Assembly (NCBI GenBank): GCA_017307285.1
Contig: JAFKFI010000060.1
Location: forward strand, 1-64,000
DNA: 64,000 nt
Reading direction: 5' to 3'
From: Alphaproteobacteria bacterium
GTDB taxonomy: Bacteria > Pseudomonadota > Alphaproteobacteria > Acetobacterales > Acetobacteraceae
Part shown: positions 32,966 through 37,821 of the stretch, in pieces
Position numbering within the stretch: the stretch's first letter is position 1
Layout of the letters: every line of letters begins with the position of its first letter
Program-made: the position numbers and the translations under genes
Notes under the pieces: model-generated
The model's input: only the letters and a program-made list of their open reading frames with translations
Database searches by the model: none
Told to the model about the DNA's origin: nothing

Positions 32966-34333
32966 TCAGAAGATCAGCCACGCGAAGGCATAGAGCGTAT
33001 TGTTGCCGCCCGCGTTGCGGCCGAAGCCATCGTAATTGCGCGTGCCGCCATTGAAGCGGGTGTAGAGCGTGTACTGCAGGCCGAGCTTCAGGTTGACCCA
33101 GGGAGCGGCCCAAGAATCCTGCTTGCCGAACGGTATCCAATCCGCCTCGACGATGAAGGCGTTGCTGTTGGGCTTGCCGTTGGCGCTGCCTGTGACTGGC
33201 GCTGGCGCGTACAGCACCGGGTCCGGCGTGCCCCAAGTGTTCTCGATCCCCAGGGTCAGCCCGTAGGTGTCCTTGTAGAAGAAGGACAGGCTGGCGCGCG
33301 CCTGGTTGAGCGAATGTCCGGTCCTTGCCGCGCCACCCATGCCGAAGGTGCCGCGGAGGTTCTGATCCTCATGCACAAGGATCGCGTCGGTGGTCACGAC
33401 GTAGGTGCGGTTGCCGAGGAACTGGTAACCGGCGTCGATCGCATAGTCGGTGAAACTGTCGTGGCCGAACGATCCGTCCGAGCTGAAGGGTCCGACCGCC
33501 GGATTGAAATTGGAATGCAGGAACAGCCCGCCGACATGCGCGGACTGGCCGGACCAGTTCCACTCGTACGCAACGCGGACATAAGGGGCGGGGTTGGCGG
33601 TGCTGCCGGGCCCGTATGCCTGGCCGGTGGCGCTCAGCAAGCTGGGGCCGTAGGTGTTGTAGAGCCCGGCTTCGAGATAGAGGCTGCGATCGTACCACCC
33701 ATAGACGGTGGTGCCGATGGAGTTGCCGATCAGCCCGCCCGCGAGCAGGGGTTGCGCCGTGGGTGTGACGGTCAGGGCGGATGAAGCAAAGGGAAAGATC
33801 CAGGCGTAGGTGGAGTTGTATGGGTCCTGCACCGTGGGGCCATTGTTGACCGACAGACCAAGCCGCAGGTCGGTGTCGCCGAGGTCGAGCGGCGTTGTCA
33901 GCCGAAGGTCAGTGTTGTCGAGCTTGAAACTGCCGTCTATGCCCGAATACGTGCCCTGGACGAACCCACCCGCGTAATCGGTCACTCGTCCGGCGAGGAA
34001 CAAGCTGATCTGGTCCGCGGCGAAATTGTTGTTTCGTCCGAAATGAACGGCGGCGGGATCGGGCTGGCTCTGGCCGGTGTTGGTGAAGGAGCCAAGGAAC
34101 ATCGCGGCGAGCGGAAAATGCGACTGCCAGCCCTGGCCCCCGGTCTGCGTGTATCCACCGATCTTGAACGCTCGGCCGAGCGGCGTGAGTTGCGGTCCGA
34201 AGGCTCCGATGTGGCAGGCGGTGCAGGGCTGCCCGGTCTGCATGGCGAACGGCGGCACCGCATGGGCCTTGTCGCCGAGCAGCAGCACCACCACGAACAC
34301 GATGATGCCAGGCGTGTAAGCGAGGCGACGCAT
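32966..34333 (-). CDS. Fused monoheme cytochrome c and outer-membrane beta-barrel (Cyc2-like architecture)
   Basis: 455 residues. Signal peptide to about A25 (ending KAHA), then PPFAMQTGQPCTACH with a heme c site at C37-x-x-C40-H41, followed by LTPLGRAFKIGGYTQTGG. From about residue 60 on the sequence is amphipathic beta strands with many aromatic residues and ends in Phe (YAFAWLIF), as outer-membrane barrels do. A short N-terminal cytochrome plus a barrel of about 400 residues is the layout of the Cyc2 iron oxidase family; the layout also occurs in non-iron oxidisers, so electron transfer is likely but the donor is unknown. AAGGAT precedes the ATG; the cytochrome c gene lies 11 bases upstream. 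Confidence 0.8.
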   Translation of the reverse strand: MRRLAYTPGIIVFVVVLLLGDKAHAVPPFAMQTGQPCTACHIGAFGPQLTPLGRAFKIGGYTQTGGQGWQSHFPLAAMFLGSFTNTGQSQPDPAAVHFGRNNNFAADQISLFLAGRVTDYAGGFVQGTYSGIDGSFKLDNTDLRLTTPLDLGDTDLRLGLSVNNGPTVQDPYNSTYAWIFPFASSALTVTPTAQPLLAGGLIGNSIGTTVYGWYDRSLYLEAGLYNTYGPSLLSATGQAYGPGSTANPAPYVRVAYEWNWSGQSAHVGGLFLHSNFNPAVGPFSSDGSFGHDSFTDYAIDAGYQFLGNRTYVVTTDAILVHEDQNLRGTFGMGGAARTGHSLNQARASLSFFYKDTYGLTLGIENTWGTPDPVLYAPAPVTGSANGKPNSNAFIVEADWIPFGKQDSWAAPWVNLKLGLQYTLYTRFNGGTRNYDGFGRNAGGNNTLYAFAWLIF

Positions 34334-34344
34334 CTTGGCATCCT

Positions 34345-34836
34345 TCAATGCAGGCCTTTGAGGAACGCGATCACGTTGGCGCGCTGCTTCGGGTCGTGCA
34401 GGCCGGGGAAGGTCATGAGCGTCCCCGGAACCACTTGCTGCGGGCTTGTGAGATAGCGGTCGAGCGTCGAAGGGTCCCAGGTCAGGCCGGACTGCCGGTT
34501 GGCATTGGAGTAGTGAAATCCCGGCACCGATCCCGAATGCCGCCCCACCACGCCGAACAGGCTCGGCCCGACGATGGTGCGGCCGGGCTGCGCCGAATGG
34601 CAGATGCTGCACTGAGAGCGAAAGACCTGCTTCCCGGCATCCGCATCCTGTGCATGGGCCGGCGGGCTAGACGCGAAAACGACAATCGCAGCCAGCGCCG
34701 TTCGGCCAACATGTTGTAAATACGCAACGCATGGCGTTGCGACGAGTCCGTTGCTGCCGCCCGTGGGCGACGCGATGGTGCGTTCGGTCCGAGGCAAGAT
34801 GTCCCCCTCGCTGCGGTGATGATGCCCTTGCTGCAT
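34345..34836 (-). CDS. Periplasmic class I cytochrome c
   Basis: 163 residues from the ATG at 34836, a tentative start. A hydrophobic stretch (TALAAIVVFASSPPAHA) is the likely signal peptide; the heme site is SQCSICHSAQPG (C76, C79, H80) and the sixth ligand Met is in PGTLMTFPGL, so this is a small soluble c2-like electron carrier. The region upstream of the signal peptide is poorly conserved and no strong ribosome-binding site decides the start. It ends 11 bases before the barrel-cytochrome gene, so the two form an operon. Confidence 0.78.
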   Translation of the reverse strand: MQQGHHHRSEGDILPRTERTIASPTGGSNGLVATPCVAYLQHVGRTALAAIVVFASSPPAHAQDADAGKQVFRSQCSICHSAQPGRTIVGPSLFGVVGRHSGSVPGFHYSNANRQSGLTWDPSTLDRYLTSPQQVVPGTLMTFPGLHDPKQRANVIAFLKGLH

Positions 34837-34914
34837 ATCCGGGTAAGGGCGCCGGTCGCTTGCTTGGACGCACGCCGGGAGCGGATATTCCGAGGGCAAC
34901 GGGAGATGTGGCGC

Positions 34915-36168
34915 ATGGGCTGTTGTGGCGCCGGCGAGCCGCCCGATGAGGCGAGTACGAGCGCCGTAAAGACGGTCGCGAAACCGGCGACGCAGCGTCC
35001 GCGGCTGGTGGTCGTCTCCAGCATCGGGGTCGGGCAGGTCCTGGTCTGGGGATCGTCCTATTACCTTCCCGCGGTTCTGGCGCGGCCGATCAGTGCGAAT
35101 ACCGGGTGGCCGCTGGCGTGGGTGATCGGGTCGTTGTCGCTTGGGCTGCTGGTCTCCGGCATGGTCTCGCCGCTGGTCGGGCGGCTGATCGAGCGCTACG
35201 GGGGTCGTCCGGTGCTGGCGAGCAGTGCTGTGCTGCTCGCTGTCGGGCTGCTGGTGGCCGGCTTCGCGCCGAATTTGCCGGTGTTCGTCGCGGGCTGGTT
35301 GGTGATCGGCCTGGCGATGGGTGCTGGGTTGTACGATCCAGCCTTCTCAGCGCTGGGTCGGATTTATGGCGAGCAGGCGCGTGGAGCGATCACCCAGGTT
35401 ACGCTGTTCGGTGGTTTCGCGAGCACGATTTGCTGGCCGCTCAGCGCCGCCCTCGTGGCCCATGCGGGGTGGCGGGGCGCGTGCTTCTCCTACGCCGCGA
35501 TCGGCCTGCTGATCGTGCTGCCATTATACCTGTTCGGATTGCCTCGGGAGGAGGCGCGGCAGCCCGTGCCTGTCGCGGGTCGGCGCCCCGGTCGGGTGCG
35601 GGCCGACCAACGCGTCGCGTTCCTGCTCCTCGCCGCCGGATTGACGCTCGCCTCGATGATCATGACGGTGATCGCCGTGCAGCTGCTATCGCTGTTGCAG
35701 ACGCGCGGGTTGACCCTCGCCGCCGCGGTGGGGCTCGGCGCCTTGATCGGGCCAAGCCAAGTCGGCGCCCGTGTGCTGGAGGCAGCGCTCGGGCGGGGAC
35801 GCCACCCGATCTGGAGCCTGGTTGCTTCGGCGGCGCTGGTCGCGATCGGCCTTGGAATGCTGGCGGCGGAGCCGGGCGCGATCGCCGTCGGACTGATCCT
35901 TTATGGTGCCGGCAGCGGCGTGCGTTCCATCGCGCAGGGCACCGTGCCGCTCGCCCTGTTTGGGCGCGAGGGCTATGCGGCGCTGATGGGCCGGCTCGCC
36001 CTTCCGAAGCTGATTGCTCAGGCGGCGTCGCCGTCGATCGGCGCATGGCTGCTGCACGGGTTCGGGCCGGACGCCACCATCGCGATCGTTTGCGCCGCCG
36101 CCGTGGTCAATCTCGGACTCGCCTTGGCGCTGGTGCCGATCGCGCTGCGGCCGGATGTGGCGGAATGA
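34915..36168 (+). CDS. MFS transporter
   Basis: 417 residues. About 12 helices; motif-A-like SPLVGRLIERYGGRPVLASS lies in the loop after TM2, and WRGACFSYAAIGLLIVLPLYL spans the middle of the carrier. QVLVWGSSYYLPAVLARPI in helix 1 and GMVSPLVGRLIERYGG resemble the MFS group of small organic anion or drug porters; cargo unknown. GGGAG nine bases before the ATG supports this start over ones upstream. Divergent from the cytochrome operon. Ends GTG GCG GAA TGA inside a palindromic repeat. Confidence 0.82.
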   Translation: MGCCGAGEPPDEASTSAVKTVAKPATQRPRLVVVSSIGVGQVLVWGSSYYLPAVLARPISANTGWPLAWVIGSLSLGLLVSGMVSPLVGRLIERYGGRPVLASSAVLLAVGLLVAGFAPNLPVFVAGWLVIGLAMGAGLYDPAFSALGRIYGEQARGAITQVTLFGGFASTICWPLSAALVAHAGWRGACFSYAAIGLLIVLPLYLFGLPREEARQPVPVAGRRPGRVRADQRVAFLLLAAGLTLASMIMTVIAVQLLSLLQTRGLTLAAAVGLGALIGPSQVGARVLEAALGRGRHPIWSLVASAALVAIGLGMLAAEPGAIAVGLILYGAGSGVRSIAQGTVPLALFGREGYAALMGRLALPKLIAQAASPSIGAWLLHGFGPDATIAIVCAAAVVNLGLALALVPIALRPDVAE

Positions 36169-36195: not shown

Positions 36196-37821
36196 TTACT
36201 CGACGCCGTAGACAATGACCGTCGCGTTCACCTTCGAGGTCGGCCAGATGGGCGAGACCATGCCGCTGGCGACCGCGATCCGCTGCTTGCCGCCCGCGTC
36301 GTAGCTGATGACGCCGCCGCCGATCGCGCCACCGGTGTCGGTGGACCACACTTGCTTTCCGGATGTGGCATCGAGGGCGACGAGGGTGCCCGCCATGTCG
36401 CCGGCGAAGACCAGGCCGCCCTCCGTCGCGGTGACGGCGCCGAGGATGGGCGCCTTGGTTTTGTGGCGCCAGCGCGTCTGCCCGCTATCGGCGTCGTTCG
36501 CATAGATCCACCCGGCCCATTGCTCGGGAGGATCGAATTTTCCGAACGGCTTCTGGGTGGTGTCGGCGGCACCGGACCATGACTGGCCGAGCGCAACGCT
36601 CCTGACCTGATCCGCCGGCGCGACGCGCACCGTCGAGCACCAATCGACCGCGCCCGTGTAGATCAGATTGGTGGCCGGCGAGTAGGCGGGACCGTTCCAT
36701 TCGGTGCCGCCTTGCGTTCCTGGGCAGAAATGCGTGCCTGCTGCGGTGAGCGGCTTGGTCGGGTTCTCGATCGTGGTGACTGGCGTGCGGTGCAGCTGCC
36801 GGCCGTCATCCTGGCTGTTGACGTAGAGATGGCCGTCTTTGCCGGCAGTCGCTAGCAGTTTCGCCCCCGCCTTGCTGGTGAACAGCGCCGGCGTGGCCGA
36901 AACGTCCCAGTCATGATAGTCGTGCAGCGCCATTGGCATGTGGCGCTTGTAGGCTCCTGTGCGTGCGTCGAGCACGACCACCGAATTGGCGAACAGATTG
37001 CTGCCCGGCCGCAATTCGGCAACGAAGTCGGGCGCCGGGTTGCCGCCCGGCACGTAGAGCAGGCCGGTCGCGGGATCGAGCGTGTAGCTCGTCCATGTCG
37101 CACCGCCGCTCACCGGAACGCCTTCGGCATTCCCCCAGGTCTCGGCGAGCCGGTGCTCCAGTTCCGGCGTCGCCGGGGCGGCCGGCCCGCGGGCGACATC
37201 GTTGGGGTCTTTTGGGACCAGGAAGAACTCCCAGCGAATGTCCCCCGTCTTGGCGTCGAGCGCGTACATGCGGCCCTTGACGCCCTTGATGTCGCCCCCG
37301 GCGTTGCCGACGAAGACCAGCCCGTCCCAGGCTATCGGCGCGGCCGGGACCGTCTCGCCGAGCTTCGGGTCGGCGATGGCGCGCTCCCAGATCGGCTTTC
37401 CGCTGGCCGCGTCGTAGGCGAGCACGCGGCCATCCTGGGTGCCACGGAAGATGCGACCGTCGAGGAACGCGGCGCCGCGATTGACCTGGAGCGGACCGGC
37501 CGGCTTGTAGGTTTCGGTGCGCCGCCATTTCACCGAGCAATTCCCGGCATCGAGCGCGATGGTGTCAAAGTCGGTCGTGACATACATCGTGCCGCCGACC
37601 ACGATCGGCCCGGTCTGGAAGCTCGTCTGCCGACCGAGATCGTAGGAGCAAACCTTGTGCATCCGGGCGGCGTTGGCGGGCGTGATCGCCGTCAGGGGCG
37701 AGAACCGCTCGCTCGTCAAGGTCCGGTTGTAGCTTGGCCAATCGCCATCACTCATCTGCGCGAAGGCTGGTATGACCGCGGTGCTGGCGAGCAGCGCGGC
37801 CACATACATCGCGTATCGCAT
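36196..37821 (-). CDS. PQQ-type quinoprotein dehydrogenase (beta-propeller), periplasmic
   Basis: 541 residues. MRYAMYVAALLASTAVIPAF is a signal peptide (cleaved near AFA). Repeated Trp-docking propeller motifs (ALDAKTGDIRWEF, VLDARTGAYKRH, YDAASGKPIWERA, ALDATSGKQVWSTD) mark an eight-bladed PQQ propeller; FCPGTQGGTEWNGPAYSPAT is the conserved core of the methanol/alcohol dehydrogenase class. No fused heme, so electrons would go to a separate cytochrome such as the one at 34345. Substrate unknown. It lies 158 bases from the acyl-CoA dehydrogenase end. Confidence 0.85.
   Translation of the reverse strand: MRYAMYVAALLASTAVIPAFAQMSDGDWPSYNRTLTSERFSPLTAITPANAARMHKVCSYDLGRQTSFQTGPIVVGGTMYVTTDFDTIALDAGNCSVKWRRTETYKPAGPLQVNRGAAFLDGRIFRGTQDGRVLAYDAASGKPIWERAIADPKLGETVPAAPIAWDGLVFVGNAGGDIKGVKGRMYALDAKTGDIRWEFFLVPKDPNDVARGPAAPATPELEHRLAETWGNAEGVPVSGGATWTSYTLDPATGLLYVPGGNPAPDFVAELRPGSNLFANSVVVLDARTGAYKRHMPMALHDYHDWDVSATPALFTSKAGAKLLATAGKDGHLYVNSQDDGRQLHRTPVTTIENPTKPLTAAGTHFCPGTQGGTEWNGPAYSPATNLIYTGAVDWCSTVRVAPADQVRSVALGQSWSGAADTTQKPFGKFDPPEQWAGWIYANDADSGQTRWRHKTKAPILGAVTATEGGLVFAGDMAGTLVALDATSGKQVWSTDTGGAIGGGVISYDAGGKQRIAVASGMVSPIWPTSKVNATVIVYGVE

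Follow-up and report, generated by a model that had tools for sequence, protein, structure and literature searches.

A Cyc2-like porin-cytochrome and its cytochrome c partner as a probable outer-membrane electron port in a member of the Acetobacteraceae

Microbial iron oxidation is often traced by means of Cyc2 as a marker gene. The locus studied here, located in a stretch of 64,000 nucleotides from an acetobacteral genome (the window), carries a Cyc2-like gene next to a gene for a soluble cytochrome c. It raises the question of whether such a pair passes electrons across the outer membrane and, if so, from which donor.

RESULTS

A porin-cytochrome gene is preceded by a cytochrome c gene

The features of the locus, with their positions in the window, are as follows.

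32966..34333, minus strand: Cyc2-like fused porin-cytochrome P0001, precursor of 455 aa, stop codon included (sequence, homology, AlphaFold2)
34259..34333, minus strand: predicted signal peptide of P0001, residues 1-25, with the site AHA at its end (sequence and 126 homologues)
34118..34258, minus strand: cytochrome domain of P0001, residues 26-72, with VPPFAMQT (mature N-terminus), CTACH, PQL, and GRAFK
34211..34225, minus strand: heme c site of P0001, C37-T-A-C40-H41 (invariant in 126/126 homologues, which were chosen by CxxCH)
32969..34111, minus strand: predicted outer-membrane barrel of P0001, residues 75-455, 16 strands (AlphaFold2, Foldseek, VIA-align)
34341..34345, minus strand: AAGGA ribosome-binding site of P0001, overlapping the P0002 stop codon (sequence)
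34345..34797, minus strand: soluble monoheme cytochrome c P0002, 150 aa, with CSICH and the Met of PGTLM (Pfam PF00034, E 1.8e-7)
34816-36168, plus strand: MFS transporter, divergent from the pair
36196-37821, minus strand: PQQ-propeller quinoprotein, 1.4 kb from the pair

The initial annotation of a 455-residue protein with a signal peptide, a heme site at C37/C40/H41, and a terminal Phe was confirmed in the sequence. Without its stop codon, the open reading frame spans 32969-34333 (minus strand) and encodes 455 aa; its last residue is Phe. The cleavage site, between AHA and VPPF, is of the AxA type, and the first cysteine of the single CxxCH motif (CTACH, residues 37-41) is the 12th residue of the mature protein. 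The gene is present in a single copy in the source genome (5.7 Mb, 98% complete).

The P0002 gene lies upstream of that of P0001, from which it is separated by 11 nt, and the pair looks translationally coupled because the AAGGA sequence of P0001 overlaps the stop codon of P0002. The partner had initially been described as a cytochrome c of 163 residues; its identity as the operon partner holds, but that length depends on ATG 34836 as the start, whereas a good ribosome-binding site (GAGGGGG at 34803-34809) precedes TTG 34797, a start that gives 150 aa. P0002 is a generic class I cytochrome c; the Met of PGTLM occupies the usual axial-ligand position, and the match to the cytochrome c-550 CycA equivalog NF043008 reached 91 bits, under the curated cut-off of 240 bits. 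The operon consists of these two genes only and does not have the cyc2-cyc1-cup-cox-rus gene order. A same-strand cytochrome c neighbor was also observed in most acetobacteral relatives of P0001.

P0001 is predicted to form a 16-stranded porin-like barrel

An AlphaFold2 model of P0001, computed with 26 homologues (pLDDT 82.6, pTM 0.82), contains 16 beta strands between residues 75 and 454 in a porin-like topology. The Cyc2-like barrel topology proposed initially was thereby borne out, since the prediction returned a 16-stranded porin-like barrel and not a fold devoid of one. Foldseek and VIA-align matched the model to 16-stranded porins at Z about 22 over ~300 residues. The Foldseek matches included OprO/OprP, the templates used for Mariprofundus Cyc2 (PMC8406198), and those of VIA-align included 5O78 (Z 21.9), reported as the entry nearest to A. 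ferrooxidans Cyc2 (PMC10654088). No solved structure related to the whole of P0001 was found by sequence search. The heme domain was modeled at low confidence (mean pLDDT about 30-65, residues 21-50), and it is therefore only from the porin topology that the heme may be placed at the periplasmic mouth. P0001 combines the two features of the superfamily, namely, a 16-stranded porin fold and a fused N-terminal monoheme domain, the latter at low model confidence.

P0001 is related to Cyc2 and groups with uncharacterized acetobacteral proteins

Across the phylum, homologues of P0001 were detected in 81 of the 397 genomes sampled. Among related genomes, 27 of 147 encoded one, and the species-genome collection contains relatives at 573 or more loci, which excludes a chance open reading frame. 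The closest relatives were mostly from Acetobacteraceae or Rhodospirillales, in line with an acetobacteral source of the window; among named relatives, the species-genome scan placed a protein from a Rhodopila metagenome genome nearest (70%).

Two references were used for the comparison with known Cyc2 proteins. The f90 family contains many proteins with N-termini such as AIPAFARQTGAACLSCHFQTFPAINAFGRAFK, and we infer that it represents Zetaproteobacteria and that its proteins are zetaproteobacterial Cyc2 (Cluster 1, Cyc2PV-1), for which it served as a stand-in. A profile built from twelve f90 proteins matched P0001 at E 1.1e-13, as well as the other homologues. When the cytochrome domain was removed, the barrels alone gave 12 weak matches (best 1e-5), compared with 0 for reversed sequences; the barrel of P0001 itself was not among these 12. 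P0001 resembles the zetaproteobacterial stand-in in its N-terminal domain and 16-strand layout but is only ~20% identical to it, with weak barrel sequence similarity and a very long separating branch.

The second reference, an acidophile anchor (L169), was obtained through a rusticyanin search, after which the surroundings of the rusticyanin gene were fetched. Its gene order is of the cyc2-cup-coxB-coxA-coxC-ctaA-ctaB-rus type, as read by eye from the open reading frames, except for rusticyanin itself. Genome G526, considered as an Acidithiobacillus source of the reference Cyc2, was ruled out, as it contained no rusticyanin. The rus-operon Cyc2 of L169, representing acidophilic iron oxidizers, aligned with P0001 over the full length at 31% identity (469 columns, E 2e-45). 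The two proteins share a signal peptide, an AxPxFAxQ start, a single CxxCH, the barrel, and an adjacent periplasmic electron carrier. They differ in that P0001 belongs to a separate subclade, has Met instead of Arg in the N-terminal motif, is paired with a monoheme instead of a diheme Cyc1-type cytochrome, and lacks a cox-rus operon. Because of the full-length match to L169 and the f90 profile match, P0001 is regarded as a real member of the Cyc2-like fused porin-cytochrome superfamily and, judged by its sequence, is a true Cyc2 homologue.

In the tree, P0001 and four further proteins, two or more of them from its own family, formed one group (98 SH-aLRT), and the L169 protein fell into another supported clade, together with several homologues that have a diheme cytochrome as neighbor. 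The root of this tree is unreliable because the zetaproteobacterial-type branch is very long. By its placement, P0001 is part of an uncharacterized acetobacteral subclade that is distant from every tested Cyc2. Of the initial description as Cyc2-like, the homology is retained, and a place inside the experimentally tested clades is not supported (31% and ~20% identity).

Keffer et al. (2021, PMC8406198) gave the motif AXPXFAR[Q/K][T/Y] as unique to Cyc2 and located PXL four residues after CXXCH. With its 455 residues and single CxxCH after the signal peptide, P0001 agrees with the length definition of Cyc2 sensu stricto (at least 365 aa; PMC8406198). Its sequence AVPPFAMQT fits the published motif at all specified positions except for the replacement of Arg by Met. 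Of the 126 homologues, 53 have the Arg of the "FAR" motif, among them the zetaproteobacterial-type proteins, and the L169 rus-operon Cyc2 has it as well. Most acetobacteral rows of the alignment lack this Arg, as do many rows from other Alphaproteobacteria, and the tree requires at least 8 changes at its position. PQL follows CxxCH after five residues in P0001, compared with three in the L169 protein, and this spacing is not diagnostic, since the rus-operon Cyc2 itself deviates. Given the Met in the motif, we filed P0001 in the wider family and not as a strict-sense Cyc2. No Pfam or NCBIfam model was above cut-off for P0001 or for seven other Cyc2-like proteins, zetaproteobacterial-type ones included, so that these collections are unable to test Cyc2 membership.

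One relative (L027, 1423-1803) is truncated and has a decayed heme site, with QPGVAFH in place of CxxCH; parts of the domain are kept, and it looks like a dying copy.

Conservation of the N-terminus and the sixth heme ligand

The alignment comprised 126 intact homologues, and as its rows were picked for carrying CxxCH, the invariance of the heme site is partly by construction. Only two of the invariant side chains could ligate heme, namely, His41 of CxxCH and that of Lys57; neither a Met nor a second His was conserved to 90% among the 126 sequences. Ala25 was invariant (126/126), only Ala, Ser, Val, or Gly occurred at position 23, and 124 sequences had Pro27. This N-terminal conservation can be read as a signal-peptidase site in a fixed position, after which comes x-P-x-F-A-x-Q.

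Cytochrome f has the same opening of the mature protein directly after the signal-peptidase site, and its N-terminal amine is the sixth heme ligand. The resemblance is an analogy at most, as cytochrome f was not among the matches in a profile search of solved structures (PDB). Furthermore, 11 residues separate the N-terminus from the first heme Cys in P0001, compared with about 20 in cytochrome f, and P0001 is a porin, whereas cytochrome f is an anchored beta domain.

Because no Met is conserved, an amine was proposed as the sixth ligand. Across the whole Cyc2 superfamily, the heme iron might be ligated by His and an amine, either the N-terminus released by signal-peptide cleavage or Lys57, and the superfamily might constitute a generic outer-membrane electron port, found mostly in heterotrophs, with interchangeable periplasmic carriers. 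We advance this proposal tentatively and with considerable doubt. If it is true, the "AXPXFAR" signature would in part represent a signal-peptidase site and a ligating N-terminus, and the amine offers a direct spectroscopic test for the whole superfamily. The constant distance between signal site and heme was considered as proof of an N-terminal ligand; this argument was weakened by the fairly constant distance in many soluble partner cytochromes.

Different periplasmic carriers occupy the same position

The neighbor survey covered 104 deduplicated homologous loci whose flanks reached at least 1 kb in either direction. A periplasmic electron carrier was encoded within 1.5 kb in 78 of them, and the carrier density was 0.28 per kb near the gene versus 0.0097 per kb at 2.5-6 kb (about 29 times). 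These counts are descriptive, given that the loci are not independent of one another and that gene calling relied on a simple ORF scan. The commonest neighbor was a monoheme cytochrome c like P0002, and others were HiPIP, diheme c4-like cytochrome, plastocyanin-like cupredoxin, and azurin. The neighbors thus cover three protein folds, namely, cytochrome c (mono- or diheme), HiPIP, and cupredoxin, and Pfam bore out 9 of 10 sampled neighbors (HiPIP, Copper-bind, Cytochrom_C). On the tree, the carrier type changes at least 9 times. An exchange of electrons between the porin-cytochrome and a periplasmic carrier is suggested, since the presence of three unrelated folds at the same place is otherwise hard to explain. 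This carrier swapping supports a role as electron port, whatever the donor.

An annotated c-type cytochrome also adjoins all five plasmid-borne homologues of the annotated collection, which are from Acidiphilium, Caballeronia, Methylocystis, Polymorphobacter, and Ideonella. On the Methylocystis plasmid (L143, 7486-9594), three consecutive genes for c-type cytochromes come after that of the porin-cytochrome. A plasmid labeled Acidithiobacillus ferrooxidans (CP084173.1) gave match statistics identical to those of the Acidiphilium cryptum plasmid and is possibly shared or contaminating.

The P0001/P0002 type is already known. The second Cyc2 of A. ferrooxidans served to find homologues in Acetobacteraceae, and their adjacency to mono- or diheme cytochromes was published in 2023 (PMC10715153); those homologues share with P0001 the bacterial family and the pairing with a cytochrome c gene. 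In the literature searched, no paper naming Cyc2, HiPIP, and azurin together was found.

The genome fits a respiring heterotroph

In the source genome (98% complete), we found no rusticyanin, photosynthetic reaction center, MtrB/PioB, or carbon-fixing RuBisCO, which makes autotrophic iron oxidation unlikely. The only RuBisCO-family match was a RuBisCO-like protein (L146, contig C18 of the same genome, 1072-2244), encoded downstream of an ABC-type substrate-binding protein and judged not to be carbon-fixing because of its partial match and altered active-site region. Heme-copper oxidase subunit I scored above its family cut-off at seven loci; at one of these, on contig C119, it is split into two pieces that lie side by side. 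This gene content fits a respiring heterotroph.

The PQQ-type quinoprotein is located where the initial annotation had placed it, 1.4 kb from the pair and on the same strand, and these features, together with its propeller, had suggested a link to the electron path. That link was not upheld. The quinoprotein lies outside the P0001/P0002 operon, as the MFS gene on the opposite strand intervenes (best match ArsK-type arsenite efflux, 216 of 400 bits, well under cut-off). It has no vicinal Cys-Cys pair and is below the cut-offs of TIGR03075 and TIGR04528 (PQQ alcohol dehydrogenase, "acido-empty-quinoprotein"), and no quinoprotein-like gene was found in the flanks (up to 6 kb) of any homologous locus. 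It is thus extremely improbable that this protein feeds electrons into the P0001/P0002 pathway.

DISCUSSION

The pair is likely to be a minimal electron port across the outer membrane, in which electrons would pass from a small reductant to the P0001 heme, on to P0002, and finally to a heme-copper oxidase. Homology, barrel fold, heme site, and conserved operon pairing were computed; we infer the heme position, the direction of flow, the donor, and the oxidase. After export, P0001 would acquire one heme c close to its new N-terminus and form a 16-stranded barrel in the outer membrane, with its heme domain located at the periplasmic mouth. From the outside, a small soluble reductant, with Fe(II) as the leading candidate, would enter the barrel and reduce the heme, which would hand the electron to the soluble cytochrome c of the operon, and P0002 may then feed one of the heme-copper oxidases of the genome. 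P0001 most likely works like Cyc2, with a soluble cytochrome receiving the electrons from this outer-membrane port. Most likely, the organism is a heterotroph, for which the port would provide an accessory electron input or reduced-metal detoxification, not an autotrophic livelihood.

Fe(II) is a plausible donor to P0001, and the initial caution about a possible donor other than iron still applies. The port could be the same and its physiological reductant be a metal ion other than Fe(II), a phenol or humic compound in reduced form, or a reductant that neighboring organisms make, an alternative that deserves attention, even if we consider it the less probable one. It would be in line with the distance of the subclade from every tested Cyc2, the Met in place of the motif Arg, and the wide distribution of homologues, which are common in bacteria that, to our knowledge, are not iron oxidizers, such as Dyella, Lysobacter, and Phenylobacterium. 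Moreover, Keffer et al. rate the function of Cluster 3 as the most uncertain and allow for other functions (PMC8406198). In favor of iron, however, all three characterized Cyc2 proteins oxidize Fe(II) (PMC8406198), and many relatives were recovered from metagenomes with names that hint at a bog or lake, settings in which Fe(II) might be present.

Both the direction of flow and the role of the heme might also be different. The second A. ferrooxidans Cyc2 has been cited as involved in ferric iron reduction, and Acidiphilium species are stated to reduce ferric iron (PMC10715153); an Acidiphilium plasmid carries a homologue. The port might therefore release electrons that come from the periplasmic cytochrome to an external acceptor, for example Fe(III). 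This is unlikely in an organism whose seven loci for heme-copper oxidase subunit I indicate an aerobic lifestyle, and a single high-potential heme, as measured for Cyc2 proteins other than P0001 (PMC8406198), suits the acceptance of electrons from Fe(II). A structural or sensory function of the porin's heme, without a part in electron transfer, for which the loss of CxxCH in the truncated relative might speak, is very improbable in view of the heme site conserved in all 126 intact homologues (in part by their selection) and of the usual neighbors, which are carriers of three unrelated folds. An inward electron port remains the preferred reading.

The swapping of carriers shows that the conserved part is the port and the exchangeable part the periplasmic carrier. 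As the large branch to which P0001 belongs occurs in many bacteria not known to oxidize iron, the treatment of every Cyc2-like protein as an iron oxidase may overstate iron oxidation. If, on the other hand, the Cyc2-like proteins of this branch do oxidize iron, iron oxidation would be far commoner than thought.
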